Positions 4,381 to 41,200 of a stretch of DNA of 64,000 nt are shown piece by piece. The DNA comes from Echinarachnius parma (taxonomy: Eukaryota; Echinodermata; Echinoidea; Clypeasteroida; Echinarachniidae), in NCBI GenBank assembly GCA_037951105.1, contig JBAMJV010003030.1, positions 248,001-312,000 on the forward strand, read 5' to 3'. The notes beneath the pieces are model-generated. The model searched no databases. It was not told the DNA's origin and saw only the letters and a program-made list of their open reading frames with translations. How positions within the stretch are numbered: position 1 is the stretch's first letter; each line of letters opens with the position of its first letter. The translations under genes were made by a program, and so were the position numbers.

Positions 4381-5976
4381 TATTATGTCTCGGGACAACC
4401 TAGCCGATGACATTGTTCCCATCCCTAAACAAATAATGAGTTCAAATTCTGCTGTGATAGTAAATAGAACAGAGTATCGTGACCTCGACCGTGCAAGATT
4501 GTAATCCTCTGTACACGATACAGGTAAAGTTAAATACAAACGTGAATCATTTACATACCGCATCCTGTATTACGTATGTCGATCGGACCAATATTTCCAA
4601 CTCGAAATCTAGAACATTGGACAAATATAGCAGTCTGGCATCTAAAATAAATATAGCTAAGGATTGTCACACCATCTTGATGAGTGACACAGCAAGGCAC
4701 ACCTGAAGATCAGAAATGATATTTACGCAGGCACCGTGAAGCTTCAATTCGGTAAGGCTTTTGTCGTTAACGTTACTGCATAATATATTGCATAATAGTT
4801 AGTATGTGCTTTTCACCATCCCCCCCCCCCCCCCCATTTTAAGGGATTAATGCAAAATATACTGCGATATGCGTAAATAGGTTGGGACACAAATAAACGT
4901 TGTTGTAGCATTAATGCATGCTTTGTAGACAATTAATTTACATCGTTTATATTAAATTGGAACTAAATTTACATCAGAACAAAGTCGCAACCAGATAACC
5001 AGGAATATTGTATAGAACAATGAAATCAACACATGCCTTGTAATACAAGAGTGGAGATCAAAGGAAAACATATGGGATATTAAGAAAGAAGGTAAGAAAA
5101 AACCGGAATACAGGTATAATCAATAATGGGAAATAACGTGGGTAAGGAATCGAACGGCAAAGAAGGTGAAATTTTAGACAAAAAGATGACAGTTCTTGAA
5201 GAAGGAAATCTAAATCATCCATACATTCTGATTTATAATGAGTAAACACTGAGTGGCAAAGATATAGGGAGTATCGTCCATGATTAAAGTGAGGCCTGTA
5301 ACGTGTCTAACTCCACGAAAATAACTTGGAGCTTCCTCGTTTCTCTATACCGTGTTGTTTTAGCTAAGTGTAAGAGAAGAATAAAATAGGGTTAGATTTG
5401 TTTCAAATGCCCCTTTAGTATGACGATATCTATCATTTAGCTCAAAGCGTTAACAAACGGTCATAAACGTCATAAACGTCCGTTGTAAAAGCTGACGCAT
5501 ATTTATATAGCGACGAATAAAGATTCGCGAATAATGACAGGCAGTCGACGTATCTGACTCTGTCTGGGCGACGAATATTTCGCCGAAAATGACAGATTTA
5601 TCGTTGTCGATCGAGTCTGGTAGGTTAGTTGATTGATAACATAGCTATGACCTTTATGTCGGCCACGAAATTACAAAAATTACCCGCGTTGAGTTTTGCG
5701 CATTATTTTATTTTAAAAATAATTATGCAGATCGAGCTGCCGCGATCCGGTTTGACCCTAATTTTGTCAGAACCTCAGGCCGACGGTACGGCGTCGATTC
5801 CGATCCGGCTCTGTTGCACGTGTACGCGTACCTGTACCATAGCTGCATTGCCATTGAGTTGTGTTGCACCGCAAGAAAATGAGAAGCCACATGATGTGCA
5901 TTCAAAATTAAATCGTTAGTTTTCAAGATAATTAGCATTACGTACACAGGGAATCTTTACGAGCTATTTTGGAAAA
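4381..5976. other. Gene-free spacer
   Basis: AT-rich sequence with a poly-C run near 4820 and CG-containing sequence around 5450-5850. I find no credible exon, RNA gene or bounded element in it. Confidence 0.5.
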
Positions 5977-14587: not shown

Positions 14588-14955
14588 TTAATGTAAACAT
14601 TTGATTGGTAAACAAACAACAACAATTTAAGACGGTTGTTGTACGTTTTTTTTAGAGATTATTGATTATAGTATTGACTTGTCTAGAAAAAAACGGATAC
14701 TTATATATTTCAAGGGTTTCCCGAAGTGCTTTAAAGTCGCACAAGCTTGCACCGGCCTTCGCGTTTAATTTATGATGGTCGATATCATTCTCAAAATTAG
14801 AGCATTTAACCATGAGACTTCGATAATTCCATACTACTTTGTCGTGGTGTCTTACCTATGATTATACTTTGGTTTACTTATTTTCTGTCATCAGGTTCAG
14901 TAAACAAGAGGGGAAAAAAGGACGTTTGCACCTTTGATGTGACTTCCGTGCCGCC
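14588..14955 (+). promoter_or_regulatory. 5' flank and probable 5' UTR of the NLR gene
   Basis: AT-rich sequence ending in a favourable start context, GCCGCCATGT, at 14956. A plausible 3' splice site (TATTTTCTGTCATCAG) ends at 14891-14896, so the untranslated leader may begin in an upstream exon. No TATA box is convincing. The assignment is inferred from position. Confidence 0.4.
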
Positions 14956-16101
14956 ATGTCTGTCTCTTTGTGTGAGTGGAGGATGAGGATCGGAAAATTT
15001 CTCCCTCGTCCTCCGAATGATGACAAGAAGAAAGATAAACGGAAGAAGAAATCAAGTACAGACTACAAGAGAAAGAACAAATCAAATGGTCATCAGGAAG
15101 ATGGCAACCATGTACAATTAGGGCCAGAAGGACTTATGATTATCCTAGTAACATTACTGATATCGTGCTGTATACTTCGGATGAATGCGACGCCGTGGTC
15201 AAGTTCAAACGAAACAGGAAATCCAGCAATCCACCAACCATGTCTTGCTCTTGAAGGTGGAAAAGGTGTGTTCAGTGAAACAGGCAACTGGATTAGGAGT
15301 AACATCAGAGTTGCGTCAGTTACGCCAGTCATCAATGTAAAGATTGACGTCTCCACTGAACAGACTGATTGGGCTCCAGAAGATCAAGGATCAGACATCA
15401 CTAATGAACTTGAGCATTGCCTTCAGCAAACCAGCTACGTAGACAATGGCTTCATTAACTTCATCTCGACATCGCAGTCGAACCAACCATCAACCAAGAT
15501 AGCAATCTCCTCAACACCAAAGTCAAATCACTCAGTAACCAACACTGACATAGGACAATGCGCATCTCTGCCAAAACGCAAATCTACCCCAACGATGCAA
15601 TTAATTGACACAGGTTTATACCCACCCAACTCGGCACCTCGATCTAACGAATCAGCAACAATTTGGGGTCATACATCCTCCTGTGTGACGTCACCCATAT
15701 CTGCCCAGTTAACTTCTGCATCACACAACAACTATTGTGTGAAATCCTCAACATCCAACCAACTAGCAGTTCATATGCGTCCAAGATGTAATTCTACACT
15801 CTTGACAAACCAGTCAACCTGTACCACAAACACGACATACGACAGCTCTTGCATGGCATCCACTTCCAACCAACCCGTGTTTAAAATGTCTCCAAGACTT
15901 AACTACACAGTTTTGCCGATCCAGTCAAGATCTGCGTCGTACAGCCACTGCGTATTATCAACTACGTTCAACCAACTGGCAGTTGACTTACCTTCCATAC
16001 TCAAATCTGCGTTCTTGAAGATCCAACCAGCATCTTCATCAAGAGAAGAATCGGCTAAGTTTGCAGTCAAGATATCAACTTCGTCTAGTCTTGCCGTACA
16101 G
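14956..16101 (+). CDS. Exon 1: membrane-anchored Ser/Thr/Asn-rich repeat protein
   Basis: 382 codons from an ATG in a GCCGCCATGT context to the donor ACAG|GTAAAA (phase 0). Residues 24-42 are strongly basic (DKKKDKRKKK), residues 59-75 form one membrane segment (LMIILVTLLISCC), and the rest is Ser/Thr/Asn-rich with N-glycosylation sequons at about residues 85, 191, 231, 279, 285, 292 and 316. Imperfect repeats of about 33-38 residues start near 261, 299, 332 and 370 (for example CVKSSTSNQLAV and CVLSTTFNQLAV). Basic residues before the membrane segment suggest N-in, C-out topology with a mucin-like ectodomain. I recognise no named family. It could also be a separate gene ending at the in-frame stop at 16123-16125, which would give 389 residues. 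Confidence 0.65.
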
Positions 16102-19100
16102 GTAAAAATCAACAATATAGCTTGAAATATATATTGTGAGATAAAAATGGAATGGTACTATATCTTGTGCTAAGGATTTACGAAGAGCTAACTTTAACAT
16201 AAAGTTACAGATTTTAGATTTGTACACAAATTTTGCATATTTTATATCAGTTTTGCCACCAGCAATCTTGAAGCAAACAAGTAATCGAAATACACTATTT
16301 AAAGATGTTCAACGTTATAACCATGTCTTGTTAACCAAAGTGTTCAAAATGTTTTATTATGGTTTAACATTATCTGACATAATACCACATAACACTAATG
16401 TCAGTATTGTATTCTCTGTTTACTGTAAGCAGAACACTACATATCAGAAGTCATCTTTAACATCATCTGTTAGCATCAGGAAGGGGCAGAGTAAATGTCT
16501 GTGGATGTGGTTCATCTCCAAACTTCACATCATGACGGCAGGAGACATCGAAGTAAATCCTGGTCCTAAGAGCAAGACTAAGACGAAGAGTGCAGAGGTT
16601 CAGACCAGGTTAGCACAAATAATATGTTTAATTAGTATTGCATATCATGTATACACGAGGTCTTTGCTATTAAAGTAACTAGCTCGTGGAAAGGGATTAC
16701 TTTCGATCGATTGAATAAACCAACATTGTCCATCTTAAAATAGTAACATGAGTCATGTGCAATGTACTCTTGCCCCTTTAAGAGACAGAACACCAAGTCT
16801 AATTAAACGATCATGCTAATTCAATGATGGTTTGTAACATGGTCGAAGCTAAGGGGTGAGGGCAGTAAGTTGATCTCTATGAGACCCTCTCCCAGGCGAA
16901 TAATCCTTACAATACAAGTAGCGTATAAGCACAATGTAAACACAGCATATTCATTTTAGGTATTTATTTGGTCCTTATTTTAAATATGTCATTATGTTAA
17001 CCAGATGATAACTAGTATTGTTTCTGTGTCATTGATTTTAAGAGTGCTTAACAATTTTATAATGCTTTTAAACGTTTACTTTAAATTGGCTAGAGCTAGA
17101 ACTTAATATCATGTACAATTGACTCAAAACAATAAAAATATAACTTTATCAAGTTTGATGGCAAATTGTAAGGGAATATATATATATATAATTATTTAGA
17201 GTTTCATTCCTTAATTCATTATACCCCTATTCCATACATTGCTTTATATTTAGCTGTGTACAGGAGAAAGAACTTCTGGAATTGGCAAGAAACATATCTC
17301 CAAGTGAGTACTTTGTTATTGGCAACAGACTTGGAATGGACTATGCTGAGCTGGAGCAGATTAAAGTCAAACATCTCGCCGATACTAGAGGAGCTCTTAC
17401 TGAAGTGTTCATGACATGGAAAACCAGAGAGAAAGGAGGCAATAATAGAGAGATTCTTGCTAAGAAACTGCAGGAAGCACATCTGGATGATCTGGCAGGG
17501 AAACTGCTTAGAGGCCAGCTGATTGACATAGGTACATTTGCCCATTACCATCCCACACCCAGGACATTGTCCAAGGGATGATTTCATTTAATGTATGTTC
17601 ACGTATTTTATCGCCATATTTTATCTTCATATGTTATTTTTTTAAAGAATAATACGTACTTATTGCAAACAAATGTATACTAGTACAAATTACATTCAAA
17701 ATAAAAACTATTTTAAGTGATCCATTAACTCTATAGATTATCTCAATATCATTATAAGTTTCACCTGAACGATACGACATATTTTCAAAAAAGGGAACAA
17801 TGGTTTTCTAATTTAATAAAACAAGGTGAAAGTTGACGTCAGATTTTTTATCCCCGATCGTTCGTAAAGTCACCGAGTTCATATACTTTTGACAACAATC
17901 GTAAAACTTACTGGAACGCATTTTAATGGACATATCTCCATAATTAAGGAGATATTAGACGAATCAAAACCCATTTATTCGTCTGTTATAAAAGTTCGTA
18001 TGCATATTTTAGTTACGCTACGATTTTGCGGAATAAAATTGATGTACCTACCCCCCCCCCCTTCAAAAGAAGAAGACGTTCTCCTAAAGTTTCCCTTATG
18101 TTACCATTTATATGGCAAGCATGTTTAATTGTTATCATGTTTATATTGTATTATGCAGTGATAATACACTGGGCCCAAAAAGAAACTTATAATTTTTCAC
18201 ATGGCCATATTATCTTGAAAATCTGTCCATCCAAATTAACCAAAATAATACACGGGGTTACTTGAATATCCTACTCCAATGACATGTCAATATCCAAACA
18301 GTTACCTTACTGACATAATTAAAAATGCACTGGCATGGAACCATTAGCTGAATCACATGTCGCAGCGTGAAATTTCGGCAACAGAGTTTAAGGCAGGTGA
18401 GGAAGTAAAAACAAATTTAAATGAAAGTAATGTCAGTTACCCAAACACAGACATCAATAGTGGGTGTGTCAACCATGTGCTTGTAAGCATTCAGTGCATC
18501 TGCTACGCATGCTGTCCACCAGGTTTCTCATACAGGCTTGGGGGAGATTGTGGATATCGTGTGGCAAGATTGGTAGAGTGCGCGCTTTCCGATCATGAGA
18601 TCCCGAGTTCGAACCCTGCCCACGGCGTTTGTCCTTCAGCAAGACAATTTATCCACTATTGCTGCTCTCTACCCAGGTGTATAAATGGGGACCGATAGGA
18701 GGTGAAAGACTTTATGTGAACGATCTTCTTGAGCCCACTGAGCGCTTGGAAGGAACACTCCCCAGGGAGTCGAGATGGGACACACAATGTGTGCTGGTTT
18801 GCATTGTATCCTATGACCGGGTAATAATATAATTGTAAAGCGCTTAGAGATGAGTATCAATCGTGATAGGCGCTATATAAATAGTGTATTATTATTCCTC
18901 TCTTCCTGTAGAGCTGCTCTGAGTGTGTGCATTAACAGGCGGATTGTCCCTTACTGTGTGACATGTGGTCCCAGAAGTTGTTCAATGTCAGTGCTTTTTT
19001 TTGCGGTTGTGTCAGTTGGGCAACTGATTGGTTACTGACATGGGCTCAGAGTAAAGTATTTAAGTAATCCGGTGGGTCAATTTTGATGGACAGGATTTTA

Positions 19101-22100
19101 AGATATGATCATGTGAAAAATTATAAGTTTCTTTTTTGGCCCAGTGTAGTATTCGTTCCCTCAAAATCAAATGTATTCTGAAATGTGCCATTATTATGTT
19201 TCACATATCGAAGGGCCCAGTGTTTTTATATCTTTTGTTTATCTATGGTCAGCTGATAAACAACACAATACTCCTTAGTCTGACTTGATTGAGCAGAACG
19301 CTGTTGCATCATGTTATTAGGAATGAAACTATTTGAGGAACTCTATCTCCATTTAACGTACGGTGTACACAATTATTTGTTAATGATTTATGTAAAAAGG
19401 TTTGAGCAGACTGAGGAGAATGTGTTGAATGTCTGTGTGTATGTGAATATGTGAGCGTGCATGTGTGTTTGTATCATGTTATTTTTAAGAATTTAAACTG
19501 TATTAATTATGTGTAGTTTATTTTCCTTTTAAGGGTCCACCACAAGCAATCTGCTTATAATGGTGACCATACCATAATATGTTAATTATGAGGTATTATC
19601 ATTTGAATGTACATGTACATTCATTTTATGGTTAAATCAACGAATTGAATTGAATTGAATTGAATTACATAGTACAATTACGTATGTATCTCCACCGTGA
19701 TCATTTATACATATACTTCTCAACAGATCAGTCATCATGTACATCTTCATCCGGAGCAGAATCACCTCTATCTGATGAACAGTTCGAAGAATGCTGTCAG
19801 GATTTGAAGGAATTTTATCGTACACATGTATGTAAGATAAGGAAAAACCCACTAGACCCTTCCTCCTACCAGGAATTTGAAAATATTTACACCAATCTGA
19901 AGATATTGTCAGAAGATGGCAGGGCTTGGAAAGACCTGGATTACGAAGATCTCTTCACAATCAAGGTCAATGGGGCATTAGCCAAACGAATTATGATGCA
20001 GGGAGAAGCTGGATCTGGCAAGACCACGTTCTGTTCTAAGATAGTATGGGACTGGGTGAACGGAATCCACTTCCAAAAAGAAATGGTAATTATTGCATAT
20101 CTTCGAGAAACAGAAAATTGTACCATTGGTCAGATTGCTAAGATGTACATCGGGAATGATAACCCAGCTCAAGCCAGCCAGCTGGATCGTTACATTATTT
20201 CTCATCCACACAAGGTCTTCATCGTTTGCGATGGGCTTGATGAGTTCAAGGAAGACATCTCACAGTCATACGACCATCTCACATATTACACAACCAGCAG
20301 TAATCCTCAAACTCAAACCAGGCATTATCTATTCACAGATGTCACAAATATTGTGAAGACCCTTCGGAATGAACAGTTGAGGAAGAGTCTTGTGTTTGTG
20401 ACATCTCGGCCATGGACAACAAACCGTATTAGATTGAATGAGACTCTGCGAAAGGTTTACACTTTCTTATGTGTAACAGGTTTCACTAAAGAAAATATGT
20501 CAACATACATCAGCAAGTACTTTAAGAATGATAAACAAAAAGCAACCAACCTAATCGAGTTTGCAGAAGAAAATGACATTATTGCTGAGGATATTGCGCC
20601 CTATCCGATATACGCATCTATGTTGTGTTTGATGTGGAGAGACTTAACTGAAGAGAGATGTAGACAAATCCAACAGTTGCAGACATATTCACAGCTTTTT
20701 AAGGAAATATTCCTTTTCCTGAAGGAGCATTTTGTCTCGAAAAGTTACGCCAATCTGCTTGATCCGGCACGAAATGAGTATGGCAGGCAAATTGACGAGC
20801 TGTTGAAACCAGTAGCGAAAACTGCATTCGATGGTCTTCTGGATAGAAACATGGTTTTCGAAAAGGGTGATTTTGGTAGCTGCCCTGATGCCATGGATAC
20901 CGCGTGCAAGATGGGAATTCTGACAACAGAGAATAAACTCATACCGACGACACAATGGCACACTACCAATAAACGAATACAGACTGCAGTGTCATTCCCG
21001 CACAAACTCTTCCAGGAGTTCATGGCGGGAATGCATTTAGCTGTTCTGTTTCACACTGACTGGCATGGGTACATCAGAGTGGTGGAAGAAAAAGTTCTTC
21101 CCAGGATGGAAGAGTTCAAGAATCTTTTGTATTTTGCTACATCACAGAGCAAGGAGGTTGCAATAGATATCATGATCATGATGAAAAAATATGGACGCTG
21201 GGATATTAATTTCATCATAGATGTAGCATTCGAAAGCCAAGACAAAGAAGCAGCTAATTTCGTAAAAAACAATATATTGCCTGTTATGAACTCATTGAAG
21301 GTAGATAAGGAGAGAACAGCACATGCACAAGTGGGCAACATCTTTGTAGCACCGGACTTCGTAAGTAACCGTTATTGTTATTTCGTATACGTATGATAGT
21401 GTATCAATAATTATTATGCTTGTCTAAAATATAGATATTGTGATATAAATCAGCCAGATAATTATTTCAAATTTAATGTATGTAAAATTAATATGCTACA
21501 TTCTTATTCATAGACATGTTTTGGACTGCGTGTGTTTTATTTGTAAGCTTTCTTCTCGTTCGTCTTCTTATTTTATTATTCCTCCATCTTCTTTGTCTTC
21601 TTTCTTCTTCTCCTTTTTCTTTTTTTTCCTTTTTTCTACTTCTTCTTCTTGTTCGTTCTTTTTCTTATTATTGTTAGGTGATACGTATATCATACGTATC
21701 ACCTATTGATTTTGTTCGAATTTGTATTTATTTATTTATTTATTTATTCTTCCCATCAATTTTGTTTGTCGCATATCTCAAGATCAGATGAATCAATTGT
21801 CATGAATCTTCACATGATGATAGATCATGTTCTAACTTAGAACTGCCAACTTTTTAGTGACGTCATCAGGACGCCATTTTGTCAAATTTTAATAATCATC
21901 ATATCTCAGTCATGAAAAATAAATTTCGATTCAAATTTTGCATCAATATTAATCAGGTCAATCTTCATCTTTTAAGCTCATGCGCATGCGCCTACACATG
22001 AAGACGCGCGCGTACGCGTCCGTCAAATGAAAAGAAAAGTCAAAAAATGCCCAAAACCCCAACCAAATTAATTTACTATATGTTTTAGACAATTTTAAGC

Positions 22101-25100: not shown

Positions 25101-26096
25101 AAAACGTCCTTTTTTTATTCGGCCATAACTTTTTAAAAAGTCCACAAACACCCAATTTTATTTAAATATTCGGATAGATTATAAGTTGTAGATACGAATT
25201 CATACCTCATTTATGCCAAGTAAATGTTATAACGTCATCATATTGAGGGTTAAAGTTGAAAATGCGAATTTATACAATTTATATGATTAGTCTGCCGCGC
25301 ATCAACATTATATCTTGTATTGGCAAATGCAGAGTGCAATCTTTTACTCATATACCATCATTGTTTTATATCTGTCAAGTGAACAAGGGCTGGTGTCGTG
25401 GTACGAATCTGTCACTCTAGATCATACTGTCTAATTGTCGTGGGTTCGAATCCAAGCGATATTTTTTTAAAACTTTCTTTGTTCTTCTTTTTCTTTTTTT
25501 TGCTGGGGGATGTAATAATATTTATATGATGATTAAAGGGATAGTTGAGTATTGGTTAAACTTAACTTTAGTAACCAAAACGTGCACCATTACGGTGCAA
25601 ACTAATAGTTATAACTCCACCATGCTAGAAAAGTATACACAATTACAAACGACAAAGTAAAGCCCCTGTCATCATTCAAAATGAGCCGTTACAACTCAAG
25701 AGTCAAATTAACTCTAGAGTACGCTAGCGCTAGCGTTCTAGGTCCTCCTAATACGGGACTGAAACTGAATATTTTTTGTGCACGCTAATTGTGCTTAAAA
25801 TTATGATACGGTACTCGACTTCTCTCCGTGTGTTAGCGCGACTCCGAACAGATTTTGAACGAAAGATAATCGCGATGGGGGGCATTCGGAAAATACCAAT
25901 ACTCAACGCTCCCTTTAAGTGGTTATTATTGGAATCATCATTTTATCTTAACAAATCGACACGTATCACCTTAATTCGTCTCTAAGTGACGAATTCAACA
26001 TCTAGTTTGTATTGTTTGTCTTCTTCTTCTTCGTCCTCTTTTTCTTCTTCTTCTTCTTCTTCTTCTTCTTCTTCTTCTTCTTCTTCTTCTTCTTCT

Positions 26097-26155
<59 letters not shown>

Positions 26156-26240
26156 TTCTTCTTCTTCTTCTTCTTCTTCTTCTTCTTCTTCTTCTTCTTC
26201 TTCTTCTTCTTCTTCTTCTTCTTCTTCTTCTTCTCCTTCT

Positions 26241-26275
<35 letters not shown>

Positions 26276-29200
26276 TTCTTCTTCATGGTAAAGAGTGTAT
26301 TCTAACCCCTCTTGATAGTGTGTGTATCCGTGGGATAATGCATGAAAGTTAAACATTGACGTATTGTTTTCTTCCGAATACTCCAGACAGAACTGGTAGT
26401 CGAGGGAAGAGACTGCAACCTGCTACTGTCCACGGCACTTGCAGAGGCTATCTGCAATTCAACCTCTCTCGAGAAGATTACCCTGCAGAAATGTTCCCTG
26501 CATAACAGGTTCTATGAGATGCTTGCTGAGAAAGGTCAACTTCCAACGGTATAAAGTAGCATATTCGTATGTAATGGTGTAGCTTCAGGGGGAGGGGCAG
26601 GACGTGACCCCCCCCCCCCCCCCCAACCCGATAATCTGACCAAAACAAAACAAATATACGGCTATTTTTTATTTAAAAAAAATACAGACATACAGAAACG
26701 GTTTTGCCCCCCCCCCCCCGAACAATAATCAGTCTGACCACGCTACGCCACTGTTGTTAATATATGTTAATATTTCACATATGTCAGAAACATTGGTTAC
26801 CTTCATTGGTTACCTTCATTACCATATTATTAAAGGAATAGTTTAGTTTTAGTATAACTAAACTTTAGGAACCAAAACCTGAACAATAACATTAAAAACA
26901 AATAGTTGTAACTCCACCATGCTCAGAAGGTAAAACAAACTACAAACGACTAAAACAAAGTTTGTTATCATTAAAAAAGAGTCGTTAAAACACAAAAGGG
27001 CGCTTTCTAAAAATGCATTGGATTCAAGCATTTTTCATACAAAATTGTATTTTTTCCAACGGCTTGTTAAAAATTGTTGAATTCTTGTGGGGCCCAATAA
27101 TATTTATAACTAGTTATATTTATGGATCTTTCAGCATTCTGTGAACCAATTGTGATCGATTTTGATTTGATAAAGTTAATTTTGTCATTAAAATAGTATG
27201 CTCTTTCAAATTGGAAAATTTGGCAATCTGACAAATTGAGTAATTTGACAAGTGAAAGCATTTAATATATATATTTTAAAATCATCTAATACTCCTGGGG
27301 CCCCAGGTTTATACCGATCGGATATATGTATTGATATTTTCGCTGTTTCTGAACCGATTTGGATCAAATAAAGTTTATTCTGCTTTAAAATCGTATGCTC
27401 TTTCGAATTTGTCAATCAGTTTTTCATTACCTCACACAAAATTATTTCATGAAGCGCCCTCTATACCACATCTGTACTACCCCTTTAATGAAACCTGTTT
27501 TAATAGTTCTTAGTATGTGCATAGTGCACTTATAGAAGAAGTATATGATGATTTTAAACAGTTTAGTGGGCTGTCTCGCCTTGAAATGCATTTTAGTAGT
27601 TGAGTGAATTTCACTAGGAGTAAAGTTGAAAGTAGATATAAAGAAAGGGCATTCATAAGGGAGAATATAAATGAGGAGTAACCAAACATTATTATAAACA
27701 TTTAACCCTACTAAGGCCGGGGGCCATTATGCCCCCCCCCCCCCCCCCCCTCCTCCGGATTTTTTCTGATTGCTCGGAAACGCGTAAGGATGCATGACGC
27801 CCCGTCGCTTGGTGACTGTTTTCGTTCGAGTCTTGCGCATCTCTTAAAACATTTTTTTTTAAATCAGACCTATCGTTACGAAGTCACTACATGTCTATAT
27901 ATATATATATATCATTGGTTCATTGGTCTTGTTAACCTTTTAGGTATTTGATTTGGGGTCAAAATAGTTTAATTAAAGTAAGAAATAGAATAAAACAACA
28001 AAAACAATAAATTACATAAGTTAAACAAACAAAGAAATACCTAAGAAATTATCAAAACAATAGAAAACCTAAGGAATATTTCTGGCTCTTCCGTTTTTGT
28101 TGTGGTGTTATTATTCATAATGGTCTGAAGAATATATGTTATGTAACCAACGTTTAATTGTGAAGAATATATTATTTATGGGTAACAATATGAATGTTAT
28201 GACCTTCTTTGCATAAATGTTCAAATTAATGCATTTTTCAAAAAATTTAAATTACCATAGTATTCTATACACTTGACATGCGTGCAAATTCTAGTGGTGA
28301 TCGGCCGCCTCGCGGCCGAGATCTTAAGAGGGGGGGGGGGGGGGGGGGGGGGCATAATGCCTCCTGGCCGTGGAAATACATCAAATAGCCCGGCCTTTTT
28401 GGGTTAAGGGCTGTTCGTTCAAGAAAGTAAAATTTGAGTAAAAAGAAGTAAGATAATAACTAAGTACTTTATTTCTTGGCCTAAAGGGATAGTTGATATT
28501 TGGTAGAGAGGGCGCTACACAATATAATTTTGTGTGAGATAATGAAAAATTGAGTGTCAAATTTGAAAGAGCATACCATTTTAATGGGAGAATTAACTTT
28601 ATTCAGAAACGGCTGAAATATCCATAAACATATCAATTTGTAATAAATGTGGGGCCCCACAAGTATACGATAATTTTGAACCAGCCGTTAAAATTCGTTT
28701 TAAAAAGCTTCCTCTTTTCGAAAATTGTCAAAAGAGGTTTTTAGATAGTTGTTGATTATCTCTCCATCTAATCACAATTTCAACAAAATATCACATGCAC
28801 AATATTTTATTTTAAATTGTTTATATAAATGCGTTTTTTGAATACGCCCTTTTAAGTTTTTACAGCTCTTTTTGAATGATAGCAGGCTTTTTACTTAGTC
28901 GTTTGTAATGTTTAATTCCTTTTGAGCATGGTGGAGTTATAACTATTAGTTTGTAAAGTAATGGTGCAGGTTTTGGTTACTAAAATTTAGTTTGACTAAA
29001 ACTGTACTCTCTCAACCAGAACTCAACTATCCCTTTAATCTGCTAAATCATGCTTAAGTAATATATTGAATAATGTCACTGGGGTCTTGGCAACATGACG
29101 TGTAATCCTGACACATCTGATCCCAGATTACATTAAACAGTGTATGTTTTATGTTACCTTTACCAAATCCCAGATTCATTATGTAAGCCTGAATAGCGCA

Positions 29201-32200
29201 AGACTGAACGAGCATGCATCCGTTTCTCTAGCAACATGGCTGTGTGGCTTGACAAACCATGATATGCACCTAGAGCTACAGAACATGCCACTGTGTGACA
29301 GCTTCTACCATACGATGGAATCTAAGGGAGCATCAAGCAAGGTAACATTTTAACTGAATATCGGACTTTTGTAGAAGTCTACTGCAGTACGAATTAATAT
29401 AAACACGCCATCAGACACGCCATCAGACTTGAAGTTTTACTTTCATTGGTATTTACCACAATTTTCTCACATGCGTTTTGAGCGTGGCAATACGATTATC
29501 GTTTTTACTGGTATATTGAGACATTCATTCCGCCCGGCAGTTGTTGTACGATGCACACAATAATACAATACAAATTGTGATTCACATCTCATTGTTCTTC
29601 AATAAATATGCTTTTAGAGTGTTTAGAAATGACCATGACAATGTATGCAGTAAAGTGTACAAGATAATACAATACGTGATGTGAATTTTACTCTGTTCAA
29701 TTAGTAAATGAGGTTATATTTGTGAATTACCAGGTACACACGCTCAGTCTGTGTAACATGTACCAGACTGATGATACTAGACCATCCGCCCTGACAACAT
29801 TGCTGCGTGGCCTGCCCAGCCTGGCAAGCCTGGATGCATGGACTACGACACCATTTGACATATTGCACATTACGATGGCAGCTGGATTAGACTCTAGCAA
29901 GGTAACATGTTGACTGAATTGCATACTGCAATACTGACTTTATAACGACACTGTATTTTCCTTTTTATAGGTGTATTATCAGCATTTAGGAATATAATGC
30001 ATATCAATTATTCAATACTATATGTATTCAAGGGTTGGTAACAAACTGTTAATTAAACCAGATTTAGAAATGTGTCATCAAACCACTGATATATATTACA
30101 CACTTACTCACAACTGTTGTACATACTTGTGTCTTTTAAAATAAAATCACAGCTTGAGTCCGTTACTCTTTGCAACTATACTGTGAAAGACCACGAATCA
30201 AGTTCCTTAGCATCATGGCTGTGTGGTTTGCCAAACCTTACAGAACTAACGCTCAAGAGCATGGTACTGTTCGACAGCTTCTACCACACTATGGCAGAGG
30301 GAGCGCCATCGAGCAAGGTAACATTTGATTGAATATAATGATCATCCGTCTCTTCTGATATATGTTTATATTTGTGTTATATAACAAAAGGTGGTTTAGC
30401 TGACTAGAATTTGTAGCACATGAACCAACATCGATTTGTAATTGTTTCTAACAGTCGTCATTAAATTAACCATATGTAAGCACATACCTTATTATTCCAT
30501 TTGTTGCGTATACACTTTTAGCTTAGGGGACACCTTTCCATTTCCTGCTTATTTCGACCCATGTTGCACAATGCAAAGTCTCTCGTTAAAGAACCACACA
30601 ATGTATAGTGTTTGGTATTGCGAATTAAGGTTTGCTATTCCAAATCCTCAAAAAATGTCTATGTTCTTTATGTTCATGAAATGTGTAATTTACGATTTCG
30701 AAGCATACTGTTGTTGGTCACAGTTTCGTACCTCATCATCCAGACGTCTAGCCACTTGGATCGATTTGATGCCTGGCCTGGCCACCCTCAGTCTATGCAA
30801 GGATAACGATGTAGATATGACCACGAAGCTTTTCAGCCTTTTCTTCTTGGCTTGTGCTTGTCGCGTCCATGAAACACCCTCTAAATTATCTGATGTCATC
30901 CATCCAACGCTTACTCTGTCTGCATCTTCGCCTAGTTTGTGTTCATAAGTGTCCAATTAGTTATATGATATGTCCATATATTGTCTTTACGTCTTGCAAG
31001 GTGGCCTGCCCATCTCCATGTCTTTATTTTTATTTCCTGTATAATATCCTTGTCATTTATTTTCTGTATTAATTCCTCATTTCTGACCTTGTCTCTTCTA
31101 GTAACTCCTACCATAATCGTCTCTGTCGTTCTTTATGTGACTCTAAGCTTCTTTTCCAATGTCTTAGTTCTTGCCAAAGTCTCTGCCCCGTAGGATAGTT
31201 CCGGAATTGTACACTGATTTAAGATGTGTATATTGAGGGAGATAGGAAGATTCTCATCTCTGAATCCCGGGGGGGTCACTCCCAACATGACTGGCTACGC
31301 ACCCGCGTCAGAAAAAAGCGTCGAAAGGGTATCATTTTCAGCTATACGGCGTCGTCGACGTTTTCCTTAAAAAGGGGTGTTTTTCAAGCACTGATCGCAC
31401 AAAAACCTAAAAAAGGGTACCTTTTCAGGTTTACAGGTTTCGACGTTTTTCTACAAAAGGGGTCCCTTTTTAGCTACCGTACCTCCGTACTAGGTTTTCG
31501 AATATTTTTTATTTCTGCGGCTGAAATATATGTGTGCATGAATGTTGTGTGCGTGTATACACGTAACAAGTGCGCTACATGCGGTGCGCTATTCACATGC
31601 ATCACAGTGGTCGCTACTTCAGACGGTATTTTCAGCATAAACTTCCAGTGATCTGAATATATTCGAAGCTGCGACGCGTCAGAGCCACGAAAGAGCGTTT
31701 TATACGACTTTAGGATGAAGCCTTCGAAGGACAAGGAGTCATTTACCAACCGAGAATCGGCATTTATTGACACATTTTGTATCTAATACAATGGAGACGG
31801 GCCCGTAAGTAGACTACCCGTAAGTAAAATAGTAATAAACGGTGGCAACGAACGTGTTTGCATAAATTACAGCTGGTAGTACTGGTGGTAGGGGCCTAGT
31901 GCCACTGACTCTAGCCCGACGATCTGGGCGATCGATTACAAAAATTTCCGCTGAGCCTGAGGGCTCATAATTATTCTGGAGCACCCATTATATCAGTTAT
32001 ATAAACTAACTATATAAACACATTATTGAAGGATACAAACTTCCTTTTACTGAGACTTTTCCTAGCTACAATATAATTATAAATAATAGTTGTTTCTTGT
32101 AGAATTGCAATTCTATTTCTAGGCTGAAAAGATTATTCAAATTGATTGTTTGTGTCACTGAGCTGAGTCACTGACAAGTGACATCACCGAGTGTGGGTCT

Positions 32201-35200
32201 ACTCCGTTGAACCCTCTGAGTGACATGGGTCATGCTATGGCCATGGTCATGAGCCGATGTATGAGTGCACTTCTAAGTAACCATGTCCATGAGGACGATG
32301 AGCCGATCCCGATGCCTTTATCGAGCTGCCACTTGAGCCTGATGGATCCTTGACGTTGTTGACAATCATCGCCCAGGCCCCATGACCGGTGACCGGATGG
32401 TGGATGGCACGACCTGATGATTGTAATGTGTTGAGTCATTTAGATTCAAACACTTTTTTTCTTTTATGGGTTTACCGTATAGTATTCAGCAAAAAGGTAA
32501 ATTAAGCATTTTGCGTCACTCGAGTCGAGGCTTTAAAACCATATTAAATGCCATTTTAACAATTAAGGGGTGTTAACTTTAAAATGTGCATTACGCCTTT
32601 TAGGCTCCATTCAGAAAAGGTGCGATACATACGCCATTTAGGGTAAATTTCAGAAATGGTGCGATACGCCATTTTTGCCCATTAGGGTCCATTTTTAAAA
32701 AGGTGCGATACGCCATTTTTGCCCATTAGGGTCCTTTTTTAAAAAGGTGTGACACGGGTGGGTAGCACTTGTGTATGAGAGTGACCCCCCCGGGCTCTGA
32801 ATGTGATGCTGAGTTTCCCAAATTTCACCTAAGCTAGCTGGACTCTTTTTCGCACTTCTCCTGCCGTTTCATTTTCAAGGGTGATGGTTTGGACCGACGT
32901 ATATGTGGCTATCCACCTTCTCAATTGTCATGCCATCATCTGTAATTGTATGGTCTTGTAGCTGGTTGCTTATAATTATTTTAGTATTTTCGATGTTCAT
33001 TTTGTGTCCTGCCCTTTTGCTCTCTACGCTAAACTCATAGATCATTGTCTATAGTTCTTGCAAATTATGACTAGCAAGCACTCATTTGCAAACCTTTGAT
33101 AATTCAGATACTCCCCATTTATTGTAATTCTGTCATTAAAATTGTATGCTCTATCGAATTTGCCAATCGGTTTTTCATTACTTAAGCCCAATGTCTTAAA
33201 GCGCCCTCTATACCAAATCTGAACTACCCTAATAGTTATTAGTATGTGCACTTTTAAAATACGTATAAGACAAATCTAAAAAGTTGAGCGAGCTGTTTCG
33301 CTCAGTAGTTATGCGAATTTCACTAGCGTAAAGTTGAAAGTTAACCTTGAACCTTGAAGAATTACTCTCCCAAAAGCGTAAGCGCTGCCTCCTGGAGAGG
33401 GATGTGCTGTGTTGCGGGCTGTAGGTGATGTGCTGTTGGTTGTTCCCCGAGCACTAATGTATATACAATGTGCAGGGTGCAGTGTGCAGGTCAGGGGCGT
33501 ACCCAGGATTTTGTAAAGGTTTTTTTTTTTCGTCAACAAAAATTCATGTCAGCGAGGGGGGGGGGGGGGGGGGAGGTAGTCGTAGACAATTTTCGAAGCC
33601 GAGACCGCGAATTTTCCACATTTTCAAGACCGTAACCATGGTTTTCGCACTTTTCGAGGGCGAGACCATCGAAAATGACGGTCGAGACCGCTAAAACTTG
33701 GTTTCGAGACCATTTACAATTTGAAAAGGGGGGATTCATACTCCCCAAAACAGTTATTTTTTGGTCAAAGGGGGGACTTTGAACCCCCCACCCCCCCCCC
33801 CCCCCCCCCCTGGGTACGCCTATGTTTCAGGTGGTATAGGTGTGTCCCTAGTTTACAACATCTTCAGGAGCAGGGCCAGCGCAATTATCTGTATGGCGGG
33901 TAATGCCGCTCCTCTAGAGCCAAATAATGTATTTGCTGAGACAGCGTTGCTTGGGAGAGTGATCCAGACACGGACTGCTCTGGGAAACATGCTGTATATG
34001 TAGCAATTAACTCGGCAAAATGGGTGGGAGAATCTGAGGTTGTGGCTTTGATGTTGTGGTCTGGTGATGCCTGTGATGAGTCGGATTTCGGGAGGCAAGG
34101 AGATCTGGACAAGTTTGTGGTGTACCTTGAAGAGCATCTCGCACTGTTAATATAATCAAGAGGCATTCATAAGGGAGTAAATACAAGAGGAGTAATCATG
34201 AGGTTTGTTCAAGAAAGAACAATTTGCTCAATGAGTAAATCAGAAGTAAGATAAGAAATAAAATGCTTAGATTCCTTGGCTTTATTGAAAACTGCTAATA
34301 TGTTCTTGGTAACTTGGCAGCGCGACTGGTTAATCTTGTCACATCTTATACTAGAACAGATAACACAGAATAGGTTTATATGTTATCTTTCCAAATCCTA
34401 GATTCATTCTGTAAGCCTGAATAGCGCAAGACTGAACGAGCATGCATCCGTTTCTCTAGCAACATGGCTGTGTGGCTTGCCAAACCATGACATGCACCTA
34501 GAGCTACAGAACATGCCACTGTGTGACAGCTTCTACCATACGATGGAATCTAAGGGAGCATCAAGCAAGGTAATATTTTAACTGAATATCGGTCTCCTAT
34601 AATAAAGATGTAAGAATTGAATTTTTGTAGAAGTGTACAGTACGAATAACAGTTAATATAAACACGCCATCACACGTGGAGTTTTACTTTGGTATTTACC
34701 ACAATTTTCTCACATTTTGTTTGAGCGTGGCAATAAGATTATCTTTTTGTATTTGTATATAGAAACCTTCACACTATGAATCATGTGTGGATCATGTTAT
34801 AGATGGCATCTGGGTAGCATCAGACAAAGTAAAAAGTGAACTTGATTGAGGACGTTAATGTTGACAATACAGTATAATAGAACCGACACTTCATAAGTGT
34901 GCTGTAAGAGTAGAAAACACAACCACTTTTGTTAATGGCGTGGTCACACTTTACCTATGATGGCCTGCGATGGGCTGTACCAGCGCTGTGTAGCACTAAG
35001 TCCGCCCGGCAGTTGTTGTACGGTGCACACAATATTTCATTGTCCTTCATATAGGGTTTTAGAACGTATAGTAATAACCATGACAATGTTTGCAGTAAAG
35101 TGTACAAGATAATACAATACGTGATATGATTAATACTCTGTTCAATTAGTAAATGAGGTTATATTTGTGAATTACCAGATACACACACTCAGTCTGTGTA

Positions 35201-38200
35201 ACATGTTCCAGACTGATGATACTAGACCATCCGCCCTGGCAACATTGCTGCGTGGCCTGCCCAGCCTGGCACGTCTGGATGCATGGACTACGACAAAATG
35301 TGACATATTGAACGTTACGATGGCAACTGGGGTAGACTCTAGCAAGGTAACATGCTGACTGAATTTTATACTCCAATACTGACATTAATAACACTGTATT
35401 TTTCTTTTGTTTTAGGTGTGCTATCAGCATTCACGAAAATAATGCATATCAATTATGTAATACTATATATATTCAAGGTGGGTAACAAACTGATAATTAA
35501 ACCAGATTTAGAAATATGTCATCAAACCACTGATATAAATTACACACTTTAATACTCACCATTGTTGAAAGGTTAATGACAGTAGTGGGAAACGACCCAC
35601 ACACAAACAAAACATGAAATGTACGCTCTTATTTCCAAACCATGTGAAAGAATATAAATGTACTAATACGGGATTATAACAATTTGGCGAGTAGACCGCC
35701 GGGCGAGGGTGACAATTCGTTACTTTTGTGATACCGTACAGTACAGTTACATTTTAAGTAGTGGAGATTGTTTATAAATATATTTAAAGGGGTAGTTTAG
35801 TTTTGGTAGAGAGGGCGCTGCACTTCGTAATTTTTTTGTGAGGTAATGAAAAACTGAGTGTCGAATTTGAGAGAACATGCAATTTTAATGGCAGAATAAA
35901 CTTTATTTGGTCAAAATCGACCCAGAAACGGCTGAAATATCAATAAATATATCTGATCTTATAATTATTTGGGGCCCAAATAATTAGATGATTTTTTGAA
36001 AAAATTAAAACAATGCTTGCACTTTTTCAAAAAAATTTAAAAGCGTTTTTTAAATGGTTGTTCATGATCTCGCTATTTAATCATTATATCAACAAAACAT
36101 CACATGCATAATTTTGGTTGAAAATGGTTGAAACCAATGCCTTTTAAAAAAGCGCCCTCTTGTGTTTTAATGGCTCTTTTTGAATGATAACAGGCGTTTT
36201 ACTTGGTCGTTTGTAATTTGGTATACCTTTCGAGCATGGTGGAGTTATAACTATTAGTTTATAATGTTACTGTGCAGGTTTTGGCTACTAAAGTTCAGCC
36301 TTACCAAAACTAAACTACCCCTTTAAGTATGGAATGATATCTCGTCAATCGCGAAATGTGCACATAAGTTCATAAAATGAAAAAAAAATCATCGAAAATA
36401 TCGATTTACTTTGATGCATTTTGTCCAATCATTGTGCGTCTCTCAAGTACGGATTACAGTGCATCAGAGTCATAAGCCAATCACAAGCTTTGTTTTAAAC
36501 CGCGCGCCTTATATACACACTGCATAAACACTAATGTATCCAATCCCAGTGAATCTTTCATTGGAACGTAACGCGACCCCGTTAGCAAGAGCCAATCAGA
36601 TTGCTTGTTTTATCGTTGAGCTAAATTATGATTTTACGTAACATCAACATGCTCTTCCCGCCGGGCCTATGGGGCACTGGTCGGCTACGAAAAGAGGCAC
36701 CAGGTAGGCCCAACACAAACATCATCAGCATGAATATGGGAGGAAAGCCTTGTTTCTATTTTATTTTCTACATTTGGGGTAATCTTAAGAAAGGACAACC
36801 TCCCAGATTCATGCTGATGGCGATTGCATTATGCCTCCCTGCCACCTTACGTAGCCGACCAGTGCCCCGGAGCTCAGGCGACAATAGCCTGATGATCTTC
36901 GTTAGCCGAAGATCGGTCTCTTTTCCTAAAATTATTTATCAACTTCAAATGTGTTTGTGGTAATTTTTTCAAAGTGGTACTCATTCCTCATCTCTTTAGA
37001 ATTAATTCGTCTAAACGAATCAATTTACTGTGAGTTGAGATTCCATTTATACAACAAAATCCAGATAAAGTTCGTGTCATCACATCGCATCAAAATTAAC
37101 TTTTAGCACAACGATAAAAACAAGCGATCTGATTGGCTTTAGCTTATGGGACAGCGTTACGTTCTAATGAGAGATGCACTGGGATTGGATTATTTTAAAG
37201 AGAGTGTTGTAAAAAATTGTTTCACGTTTTTTCCACTTTTTGAAAAAATGTGCATCTTTTGAGCTTGACGAGATGTAGAGTTATTTTCACTATATTTTTC
37301 TCTACCTTCTGGTAGAATTTCATGTAGATGTCGAGGGGGTGTCACAAAAAGTAAAAACTCAAGCAGTTTCGGCCACTCACCCGGCGGTCTAGAGGAAACC
37401 GCCTAGTAATTGATATATTTTCAAAACTATCAAATTGATTTACAGTAAATCGATATCGCCAACGCGGAATCGCGCATACGTCGCTATGTGCAAAAGTCCA
37501 CGTGCTCAACATTATGCTCTCCGGTATGCGGACGGTATACTGGCTTGTCGATATCTCAAGCCCAGCGCTAGCGGCGGTGGATTTATAAATTTCACGGACG
37601 GCCATTGGATTTTTCCGATATTTCTGCGTGGAATGATACTTAGGTTCGGATTTTACCACACAAGCCCTGTTTAGATACTTATTCAACAATGTTGATCAAT
37701 TATTTGGCCAATATAAATGCTTTCTGTAACTTTCCAAAAACTGTTTTTCCTCTTTAACATAATCATGTATTTTAAAATTAATTCACAGCTTAAATCCGTT
37801 ACTCTTTGCAACTATACTGTGAAAGACCACGAGTCAAGTTTCCTAGCATCATGGCTGTGTGATTTGCCAAACCTTACAGAACTGACGCTCAAGAGCATGG
37901 TACTGTTCGACAGCTTCTACCACACTATGGCAGAGAGAGCGCCATCGAGCAAGGTAACATAATTTTGATTGAATATGATTATCATCCGTCTTTTCTGATA
38001 GATGTGTATAGTTATGTTATTACAAAAAGGTATTTTAGCTGACTAGAATTTGTAGCAAATGAACCAACATCGATCTGTAATTGTTTCTAACAGTCGTCAT
38101 TAACAGTCGCCATATATAAGCACATACCTTATTATTTAATTTGTTAAGCTTAGGGGACACCTTTCCATTTCCTGCTTATTTCGACCCTTGTTGCAGAATG

Positions 38201-41200
38201 CGAAGGCCTTAGCAAAAAACACACACAGTGTATACTGTTTGGTATTGCGAACTGAGGTTTGTTATTCCAAATCCTCAAAAATGTCCATCTTCTTCATGCT
38301 CATGAAATGTGTGATTTATCATTTCGAAGCTTATAACGTTTTTCGTCAACACAGATACAATCTTTCACAGTTGCGGACATTCAGTTTCGTACCTCATCAT
38401 CCAGACTACTAGCCTCTTGGATCTGTATGATGCCTGACCTGGCCACACTGAGTCTGTGCAAGTATAACGATGACTTGCCTTGGAACATTGGAGTGGCAAT
38501 ATCAGAATCCTTCTTTGAGACAATACGTCAGACAACGACATCATCATCTCAGGTAACTTACTCCATTCACCAAAGAGGAGTGTTAATATGTTGGTATGTA
38601 CATGCTCCGTACTTAACTGATTTGCTAAGTTGTTGTTATTGATTCGTAGGTTATCCACTGACCACTATATTGTGGAAGTAATGTTGTTCTTATCAAACTT
38701 GAATGATTGTGATCGTTTATGATCTTCCTTTTCTTTGCTCATTTTGCACTAATATAATATACTTCTGGTCAGTTTCCTACGTTTGAAATAATGTTTTTAA
38801 TAAAGCCAATTCGCGCTTATCCCTAAGTTGATTTTTTAAATTTGAATTAAACTCACTATATTTTATTTGCTAACTAGTGTTAAAGTGATAGTTGAGTCTT
38901 GGTATAGAGGGCGCTACACAAAATAATTATTTTGTTGTGAGATAATGAAAAACTGAGTGTCAAATTCGAAAGAATATACAATTTCAATGACAGAATAAAC
39001 TTGATTTGATCAAAATCGGTTCAGAAATGGCCTTAATATCCATAAACATAACCATTTGTAATAATTGTGGGGCCCCACAATTATCTAATAATTTTGAACC
39101 AGCCGTTAATTTGTTTAAATGCTTCCTCTTTTCAAAAAATGTTCAAAAGAAGTGTTTAAATAGTGGTTAATTATCTTCTATCTAATCACCATTTCAACAA
39201 AACATCACATGCACAATATTTTATTTTAAATGGTTGAAACCGATAAGGGTCACGAGAGCGCCCTCTTCAGTTTTACGACTCTTTTAAAATGATAACAGGC
39301 TTTACACTTAGTCGATTGTAATTTTGTATTCCTTTCGAGCTTGGTGGAGTTATAACTATCAGTTTGTCATGTAAGGGTGCATGTTTTGGTTACTAAAATT
39401 CAGTTTGTCCTAAACTGTACTCTCTTTACCAAAACTCAACTATCCCTTTAACTTAGAAGATACCTAGGGGCTAGGGTTAAACCAGTTAACCCTAGCTGAG
39501 GACTAGAAACGGTGTGTTGCTCACTTAACCGTATAATTTGAAATAGACTTAGTATAAACTAACCTAGGGGGTTAGATGAATACAGGTCTAGGTTACCAAT
39601 AGGGTTAGCAAGCTACCGAATATCTACCACCTTATTAGTGATCGTTACTGCAGAACGGTATGTTAAGTTGAGTCCCGACGCTGACGAATGCTATAAATGA
39701 GACCGAACATTTCAGAGGTAAATACAGGACAATGTATTGTGAACAAGAGTCTGAAATGATTCGTTGTTTGAAATACCAATACAAATGAACGTTCATGTAA
39801 GAAGTGTAAAATATTAGTCAGTGGCAATCAAATTCGTTTTATAGTATGTAACGTAGAACCAGAATATCAAATGTTTTGAAAATAATATTTAAAAACAAAA
39901 TTCTGTATGACCCTCCTGACAGGCCTGCTTGCCCCATATCTCCATGGGTGACTTCACGTTCAATGATGAATCCTACTCCCAGGCTGAAAGATTCCTGCAA
40001 GCAATGAGGCAGGATGAAAGTGTCATGTATGTTATGGTTTTTCTTTTAAAAGGGTAGCTTAGTGCTGGCATAGAGGGCGCTGCACGAAATAATTTGTTTG
40101 TGAGATAATGAAAAACTGAGGGGAAATTTGAAATAGCATCAAATTTTAATGGCAGAATAAACTTTATTTGATAAACATCGGTTCAGAAACGGCTGAAATA
40201 TAAACTAGAAGGCCGACAAAGTCAGCATACCCACGCCTCCCATTAGCCCTGTTCTACCCCTTCGTCGGCCTCAACCCAGTCTAGATGTATTCAATATGTA
40301 AAAATGAACATCTGTTCATCTTCACATTAGTGTCGGGTCAATAATAATTATTAAATAAATAAATGTATTTTTCGGAAACTTACCAATTTCTTGGCGCTTC
40401 AAAGTTCAGATCAGCGTGTTGCAATTCAATTCCGTTCCGTATTAATTAACCCGGAATCGAAAGTACCGTACCATAACATATGGTACCGTGCGCGCGATCG
40501 CGATGCACACCTGGACTAAACTTGTTAGTTGCTGCTCGATTGGATTCAGCGCGAGCGAGGTTACCGTATACGTACCGCGCCTATAACGTGCAGATATTAT
40601 TTAGGCACACACGTGCATTAAATACATACTCAAACTTCAAGGTTCCACAGAATTTGCAGGGGTCAACCAATCATCACCAAAATCTAATCGATTCTTCCAT
40701 GTCACTATCCAAACATTCCCTGAAAATTTGGTGCAAATCCGTTCACCCGTTCTCTAGTTATCTTGTACACAAACAAACAAACAAAAAAAAAAAAAAAAAA
40801 AAAAACAGACAAACAAACAAACATACGGAACCCTTTACATAACCCCCTGCCGATTTCATCGGCGTGGGTAATAAATGGTCATGCGTCGTGAGGTCGCCTC
40901 CTTTTGCGTTACATGCCGATTTTGGCTTCTGCGGGACACTGTTACAGTTGATAGCAAATATTTTCTGAGGAAGTCCCCCTATCCTATCAAAACTATACAT
41001 TTTCTGAAAGGAAATTTCCCAAGGAACCCAAATATGCCCTAAAAAATAACACTAGGTGTACAGTTAATTTTGTTTATTAACCAAAACTTGAAATTTTGTT
41101 TGCAGTTTTAGAGGTCAATATTTTCCTGATAACTTTTTCTGAAGTAGCTCTAGACAACTTATGATAATATTTTCATGCAGTGCAGACTTAGACCTTTACA

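Follow-up and report, generated by a model that had tools for sequence, protein, structure and literature searches.

A 64,000-nucleotide stretch of the Echinarachnius parma genome (contig JBAMJV010003030.1, positions 248,001 to 312,000 of the forward strand), referred to below as the window and corresponding to C3029:248001-312000 of a 1.2-Gb assembly with 14790 contigs, carries an exon for a membrane protein ahead of exons for a NOD-like receptor (NLR), with the core of a 2A peptide between them. The locus raises the question of whether these parts belong to one gene and, if so, whether they reach the cell as one protein or two. A preliminary description of the window had proposed a single transcript, with co-transcription drawn from the exon phases alone. 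The mitochondrial code of the assembly is of the echinoderm/flatworm type: in its COX1, read with table 9, AAA stands as Asn where solved COX1 has Asn, and ATA and AGA occupy positions of Ile and Ser, which, taken with the presence of Death-NACHT NLRs bearing 2A peptides, points to an echinoderm. Comparison with copies of the same exons elsewhere in the assembly makes it probable that one gene gives one messenger RNA (mRNA) and two proteins, parted at the 2A peptide by StopGo, the skipping of a peptide bond in translation. Co-transcription is strongly supported by the gene order within the genome, by the splice donors and by a comparison of classes of 2A exons, and is by far the simplest reading of them.

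Organization of the gene in the window

Exon 1, exon 2 and the Death and NACHT exons are all open, in phase and at the positions first given for them; all lie on the forward strand. The coding part of exon 1 (14956-16101, 382 residues) begins with a conserved start, M-S-V-S-L-C-E-W-R, in the initiation context GCCGCCATG, and continues through a basic N-terminal tail, a membrane helix and a Ser/Thr/Asn-rich ectodomain to a phase-0 end at the donor CAG|GTAAAA. Its 5' untranslated part (14895-14955) follows the splice acceptor TCATCAG|G, which is located 61 nucleotides upstream of the ATG (14894|14895). By eye, an AG|G is present about 47-78 nucleotides before the ATG in all eight exon-1 copies that were printed, and exon 1 is apparently internal, preceded by an acceptor of its own.

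Following intron 1 (16102-16432, 331 nucleotides), exon 2 (16433-16608) starts in phase 0, ends in phase 2 and encodes a Ser/Thr-rich head, the 2A peptide and a basic linker. The 2A core octapeptide DIEVNPGP occupies positions 16544-16567, where the exon reads AGDIEVNPGP, and the predicted skipped bond joins the Gly at 16562-16564 to the Pro at 16565-16567. This is the sole match to the octapeptide in the 64 kb at up to one mismatch (chance expectation of 0.01). Exon 3 (17254-17531) encodes a Death domain (PF00531, E = 2.8e-6) and exon 4 (19727-21360) a NACHT domain (PF05729, E = 3.1e-19), both above the Pfam cut-off. When searched against the PDB, the NACHT exon matched 38 sequences up to an E value of 0.01, mostly NLRPs, with the best at 2.2e-9. 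The two hallmarks used to recognize an NLR, a NACHT domain and an N-terminal Death domain, are both present in the window gene. The joined frame through exon 4 amounts to 1078 codons without a stop, of which 426 residues lead up to the Gly of the 2A, in good agreement with the earlier estimate of about 420.

With respect to the splice sites, the junction 16101/16433 stands as first drawn, and the next one, 16597/17264, was replaced by a phase-2 junction from 16608 (CAG|GTTAGC) to 17254 (TTTAG|CTG). Both versions leave the frame open and the decision was made on paralogues. A phase-2 GT is found 5-21 codons past the 2A motif in all 56 sequenced 2A exons that are paired with an exon 1; a donor of the form [A/G]G|GT[A/G/T] past the 2A is in phase 2 in 44 of these, in phase 1 in 6 and in phase 0, the phase of the rejected junction, in 2. 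The acceptor was assigned from one paralogue, C13262, which also has an acceptor 10 nucleotides before GAGAAAGAA of its Death exon and has no AG immediately preceding that GAG.

A probable family of joined genes in the assembly

Matches to exon 1 number at least 104 (a lower bound, with 108 of 203 candidates scored) and matches to the 2A exon at least 150 (150 of 272 scored); the assembled copies include haplotypes, so there are fewer genes than copies. For 99 of the 104 exon-1 matches, a same-strand 2A exon follows within the next 30 kb downstream, with a median gap of 1918 base pairs between matches and a largest gap of 29.2 kb. Among the matches listed, no exon-1 match has a 2A exon on the opposite strand within 40 kb, and the 2A exons are confined to 143 of the 14790 contigs. 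Four of the five unpaired exon-1 matches (C8502, C8214, C10301 and C4950) are on contigs without a 2A-exon match among those listed, and the fifth, C643:7983, has one 60 kb off on its upstream side and a weaker one, from the class B search considered below, 0.7 kb downstream.

A Death match is found downstream on the same strand for at least 44 of the 150 2A-exon matches and a NACHT match for at least 23, both lower bounds that come from scoring 150 of 554 Death and 80 of 638 NACHT candidates. Among the Death and NACHT matches listed around these 150 exons, none is on the opposite strand and one Death match is upstream. When the NACHT loci most similar to that of the window were taken as the starting point (best 80 of 638), a 2A exon of some class was present within 30 kb upstream of 66, and none was found for the other 14.

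Sequence was available for 101 of the 150 2A exons, including the 56 paired with an exon 1, two of which share a single exon 1 on C4585. These 56 fall into 41 clusters at 97% identity, and many copies are probably haplotypes. Distances between copies of exon 1 correlate with those between copies of exon 2 (r = 0.57, n = 26; none of 2000 permutations as high), as would be expected if both exons duplicate as one unit. The gene order and family structure, like the phases and splice-site patterns above and the conservation below, are direct observations on the assembly.

This regularity bears on whether the 2A exon is simply part of a retrotransposon that lies here by coincidence. 2A peptides do occur in retrotransposons that lack long terminal repeats, and 2A-like sequences are known from those of sea urchins (PMC4981915). 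The copies in E. parma, however, are bounded by splice-site patterns, stand ahead of Death and NACHT exons in one order and on one strand, and are under coding constraint. Since the order and strand data already contradict it, a retrotransposon origin is given practically no credence.

It must also be asked if the window holds two neighboring genes, a membrane protein that ends at the stop at 16125 and an NLR that starts in exon 2 with an N-terminal 2A of the sea urchin SpNLR2A type. The window copy would permit this, as it has an in-frame ATG at 16505, 20 codons ahead of the final Pro of its 2A, together with a 2A frame that runs through intron 1 without a stop from 16145 onward. The same ATG, however, is present in only 4 of the 56 paired copies, the window included. 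The exon-1 donor had been described as phase 0, and it is CAG|GT in phase 0 in all 28 copies with a visible end (27 CAG|GTA and 1 CAG|GTG; 2 of the 30 fetched copies are cut off), while the stop behind it lies at a distance that varies between copies. Splice-site patterns flank both exons on both sides, and loci where the 2A exon starts with its own Met have no exon-1 match among the matches listed. Two separate genes are, on these grounds, very improbable.

The 2A element and its exon

The strict core D[V/I]ExNPGP is retained in 54 of the 56 paired 2A exons and in 99 of the 101 sequenced, a retention that is somewhat biased upward, with core-less copies possibly missed, because the query used in the similarity search for copies itself includes the core. 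The residue before D12 (p11) is Gly in all 56 paired copies, and 2A peptides are described as preferring Gly at this position in passages of PMC12846837. The ratio of non-synonymous to synonymous substitution (dN/dS) among the paired copies is 0.15 for the core, 0.42 just upstream, 0.45 for the head of the exon and 0.91 for the flanking intron; these are rough values obtained by simple counting over 109 to 793 related pairs of at least 60% identity. The commonest residues before the core are C-L-W-K-L-F-I-S-K-L-H-L-M-R-A-G. Over the stretch that matches the end of SpNLR2A6, a sea urchin NLR 2A with about 80% activity in vitro (PMC4981915), the commonest residues of the paired copies are LMRAGDIETNPGP. 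The SpNLR2A6 peptide itself ends in LMRSGDVETNPGP, according to the present authors' reading of a primer printed in that paper, and the window copy reads IMTAGDIEVNPGP.

The bias in core retention is one of several points that weigh against a gene with one start and two cleanly separated products. The core is altered in two of the 56 paired copies, which read GDIQTNPGP and GDLETNPGP. The window copy has Thr at the position of an Arg in SpNLR2A6, by the numbering that PMC4981915 implies, and SpNLR2A6 activity fell when that Arg was changed (PMC4981915). As an Arg that is important in SpNLR2A6 is absent, the StopGo efficiency of the window copy is uncertain. Some proteins under translocation into the endoplasmic reticulum (ER) inhibit a 2A just behind them, resulting in fusions (de Felipe 2010, PMC2978324). 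In terms of initiation, an in-frame ATG that precedes the end of the 2A by 18 residues or more occurs in 35 of the 56 paired 2A exons (by 18-26 residues in 7), and the in-frame ATG of the window copy at 16505 has a weak context and an out-of-frame ATG ahead of it. The copies with an altered core are C8909 (L005) and C12801 (L047); in both, StopGo is possibly lost or weakened, which would make them natural fusions.

The inhibition by translocated proteins gives some room to a variant of the same spliced gene in which StopGo is incomplete by design, or breaks down while the chain is being translocated. A substantial part of the product would then be a single chain, with the Death and NACHT domains luminal or extracellular on a type II protein. 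The residue at -7 from NPGP, which is the important R of SpNLR2A6, does vary among the 56 copies (R 31, E 9, M 8, T 4, S 2, I 1, K 1), and a sea cucumber NLR has been reported with an extracellular NACHT domain (PMC13133943). The strong constraint on the 2A core argues instead that separation is needed, and an extracellular NLR would presumably be without adenosine triphosphate and its cytosolic partners. A longer upstream stretch overcomes the translocation-linked inhibition (PMC2978324), and the constrained stretch upstream of the core in the 2A exon may provide such a favorable context for a 2A that acts behind a chain in the translocon. A substantial fused product is considered improbable.

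The in-exon ATGs of the 35 copies could also serve a locus with alternative first exons, which would yield a shorter transcript for the NLR alone besides the joined one. The position of the start is not conserved, however, and 21 of the 56 copies have no in-exon ATG far enough upstream of the 2A. The fetched stretch upstream of the 2A exon contains an in-frame stop in 41 of the 56; the window copy has none from 16145 onward. Alternative first exons are unlikely as a property of the family, although the window copy alone may have an N-terminal start at ATG 16505. As judged from these copies, the 2A exon of the exon-1-paired class is not a start exon and is without a conserved start codon. The paired class differs in this from SpNLR2A, where the 2A itself begins the protein and supplies the Met. 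The arrangement preferred here remains one spliced gene that would give two products.

The exon 1 product

Residues 60-78 of the exon 1 product (15133-15189) are predicted to form a signal-anchor membrane helix. As the helix is preceded by 16 basic and 8 acidic residues, an N-in/C-out (type II) orientation is expected for the window protein, with the positive-inside rule being well established for membrane topology. In each of the 30 fetched copies, a basic tail is followed by a single hydrophobic helix near residue 60-85 (19-residue hydropathy mean of 1.67-2.59), with 13-20 basic versus 5-9 acidic residues on its N-terminal side. A type II signal anchor would be the simplest topology for the exon-1 protein. 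AlphaFold predicts a helix at residues 57-77 of the window exon 1, where the block mean of the predicted local distance difference test (pLDDT) reaches up to 91. For exon 1 as a whole, a calculation on 27 sequences gave a mean pLDDT of 40 and an ectodomain predicted to be unstructured.

The ectodomain (15190-16101) is about 35% Ser, Thr and Asn and contains 7 N-glycosylation sequons. In the 27 copies measured for length it spans 222 to 788 residues. The fetched copies have a Ser, Thr and Asn content of 29-36% and 3-21 sequons each, which would permit glycosylation. A Pfam search of the window and seven class A paralogous exon-1 proteins gave nothing above the cut-off and no immunoglobulin (Ig) match, and the window exon 1 had no match in the PDB up to an E value of 5. 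Within the ectodomain of the window copy, three diverged copies of a 70-nucleotide repeat span 15748-16030 (starting at 15748, 15859 and 15961, with 100, 70 and 63% identity). A repeat similarity across the splice between exons 1 and 2 (NTTY..SS) was also considered and set aside as main evidence; it is weak (shuffle P of 0.034), and 1.3% of 1589 open non-coding windows score equally high.

The two parts of exon 1 appear to change at different rates. The N-terminus plus helix has a median identity of 46% over 351 pairs, against 31% in the ectodomain. For 12 chosen pairs, dN/dS is 0.09-0.93 in the former (11 defined, mostly 0.3-0.5) and 0.61-1.21 in the latter. The window and its nearest paralogue give 0.31 and 0.96, respectively, a contrast to which recombination or chance may contribute, because dN is equal in the two parts (0.12 and 0.12) and dS differs (0.38 for the N-terminus plus helix versus 0.12 for the ectodomain). 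These values are read as a conserved anchor with a faster-changing outside, and are no proof of positive selection.

Proposed mechanism

Splicing would join exon 1 in phase 0 to the 2A exon, followed by the Death exon, the NACHT exon and probably the C-terminal repeat exons. The ribosome would first make the type II membrane protein, with its basic tail in the cytosol, its signal anchor and a variable, mucin-like ectodomain that passes into the ER. On reaching the 2A, it would release this chain after NPG without a stop codon and resume translation from the Pro. The second product, an NLR without a targeting signal, would remain in the cytosol. As a result, each locus should supply the membrane protein and the cytosolic NLR in near-equimolar amounts. 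From the patterns in the genome we infer splicing in vivo, the efficiency of StopGo, the topology and a joint immune function.

Two further classes of 2A exon

The exon-1-paired genes described so far are referred to as class A, and it is concluded from the comparison of copies that they represent a putative gene family split by StopGo, with a mucin-like type II membrane protein and a cytosolic NLR as its products. The 50 2A exons without a class A exon 1 include 29 on class B pairs. Among the other 21, eight are, by eye, preceded on their own strand by a weaker match that is exon-1-like.

Class B 2A exons follow a different exon 1 that shares the start motif (MPVSLCEWRVRIGRF), has 23-24% Lys and Arg, and lacks a hydrophobic stretch in the two that were read. 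A 2A exon is found downstream of 47 of the 48 class B exon-1 loci, and the 48th lies 372 bases from a contig end. The class B loci L129:2470-3096 and L131 have the start motif MPVS[LM]C[ED]WRxRIGRF, and the exon-1 protein of L129, the one tested, had no Pfam match above the cut-off.

Class C 2A exons resemble one that starts with its own Met; two were read, and 54 loci on 40 contigs were assigned by similarity. Among the matches listed, with some rows checked by eye, these 40 contigs have no class A or class B exon-1 match, and at least 28 of the 54 loci have a Death match downstream. The two that were read, L130:4470-4667 and L132 (reverse complement 4570-4881), start with MAAAKSPCSS...AGDIETNPGP, a long N-terminal 2A class, and each has a Death-like open frame further downstream in the locus.

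A broader proposal that takes in all three classes is rather more plausible than its denial. In a fixed ratio, about a hundred assembled copies of class A would make a cytosolic NLR together with a mucin-like membrane protein that evolves fast, with the 2A exon as the standing joint. In class B the partner would be a basic soluble protein with the MxVSLCEWRxRIGRF motif, and class C would have just a 2A that begins with Met. The NLR may serve to guard the partner made with it or to read it out, and the strength of the 2A may set the amount of NLR or its mislocalization.

Other features of the window

Putative C-terminal repeat exons, LRR-like (resembling leucine-rich repeats) by eye, are located at 29099-38639 on the forward strand (e.g. 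29099-29350, 29680-29910, 30090-30329, 35134-35355 and 37717-37959). A Pfam search of these exons gave nothing above the cut-off, and they are putatively assigned to the NLR gene from their order and strand only. The repeat exons 29099/34402, 29680/35134 and 30090/37717 are partly similar pairwise, which possibly reflects a tandem duplication of the C-terminal exons of the NLR.

In the intron before the NACHT exon, 18571-18870 resembles by eye a short interspersed element derived from a transfer RNA (tRNA), with parts like an A-box and a B-box followed by a TATTATTATT tail. ARAGORN identified no tRNA in the window, including this sequence, and Rfam at gathering scores gave nothing in the window. 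An open frame at 57870-58406 resembles by eye the C-terminal part of the reverse transcriptase of a long interspersed element, with no Pfam match. Finally, a long trinucleotide repeat tract at 25986-26422 would read as poly-Ser, poly-Leu or poly-Phe in one direction and as poly-Glu in the other.

Comparison with known systems

About 35% of sea urchin NLRs carry a 2A peptide, placed at the N-terminus or close to it (Roulston 2016, PMC4981915). As described in passages of that paper, the SpNLR2A genes resemble those of E. parma in being Death-NACHT NLRs with D[V/I]ExNPGP in front and a similar peptide end, LMR.GD.ETNPGP. The known type, however, is a 26-residue 2A at the protein's own N-terminus that doubles as a signal sequence (PMC4981915). 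Here the 2A is internal, behind a membrane-protein exon of 382 residues, and 2A exons with a Met start form a separate class in the genome. Viral StopGo/2A polyproteins (PMC12846837) share the core octapeptide, the Gly before D12 and the placement of the joint between two unrelated proteins, and differ in that the genes considered here are a cellular multigene family with the joint on its own exon. According to the same source, StopGo is common among RNA viruses but rare among the genes of cells, with the sea urchin case named. The only cellular animal use found described is the N-terminal signal sequence on sea urchin NLRs (PMC4981915).

Among echinoderms, the sea cucumber genes AjNLRC4 and AjNLR-new (PMC8699970, PMC13133943) likewise combine a membrane or extracellular part with a NACHT domain, and their authors tie both to phagocytosis (PMC8699970, PMC13133943). 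In passages of these papers they are described as single chains with Ig domains, whereas the genes considered here have no Ig match, an N-terminal membrane helix and a 2A between the parts. The terms '2A-like' and 'NPGP' had no match in the text of PMC13133943, with PMC8699970 outside that term search. Holothurian genome papers (PMC8913654, PMC13228809, PMC5638244) mention NLRs, and their passages on them describe no 2A. In the literature searched, no title or abstract describes a gene in which a 2A separates a membrane protein from an NLR, although a survey by Rao 2025 (Cell Rep 44:115822) might list such genes.

If the proposed arrangement is true, a protein predicted from the gene model of such a locus can be a chimera that is never present as a single chain. 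The role of a cellular 2A would become testable, since one genome offers three classes whose main difference is the sequence ahead of the 2A. Engineered 2A vectors would have a natural counterpart in a large animal gene family that links a membrane protein and an intracellular immune sensor through StopGo, and a single gene would tie recognition at the surface to recognition in the cytosol. In plants, paired NLR genes also encode the parts of an immune receptor side by side. The plant genes, however, are expressed as separate transcripts, whereas in E. parma the parts would share one reading frame.

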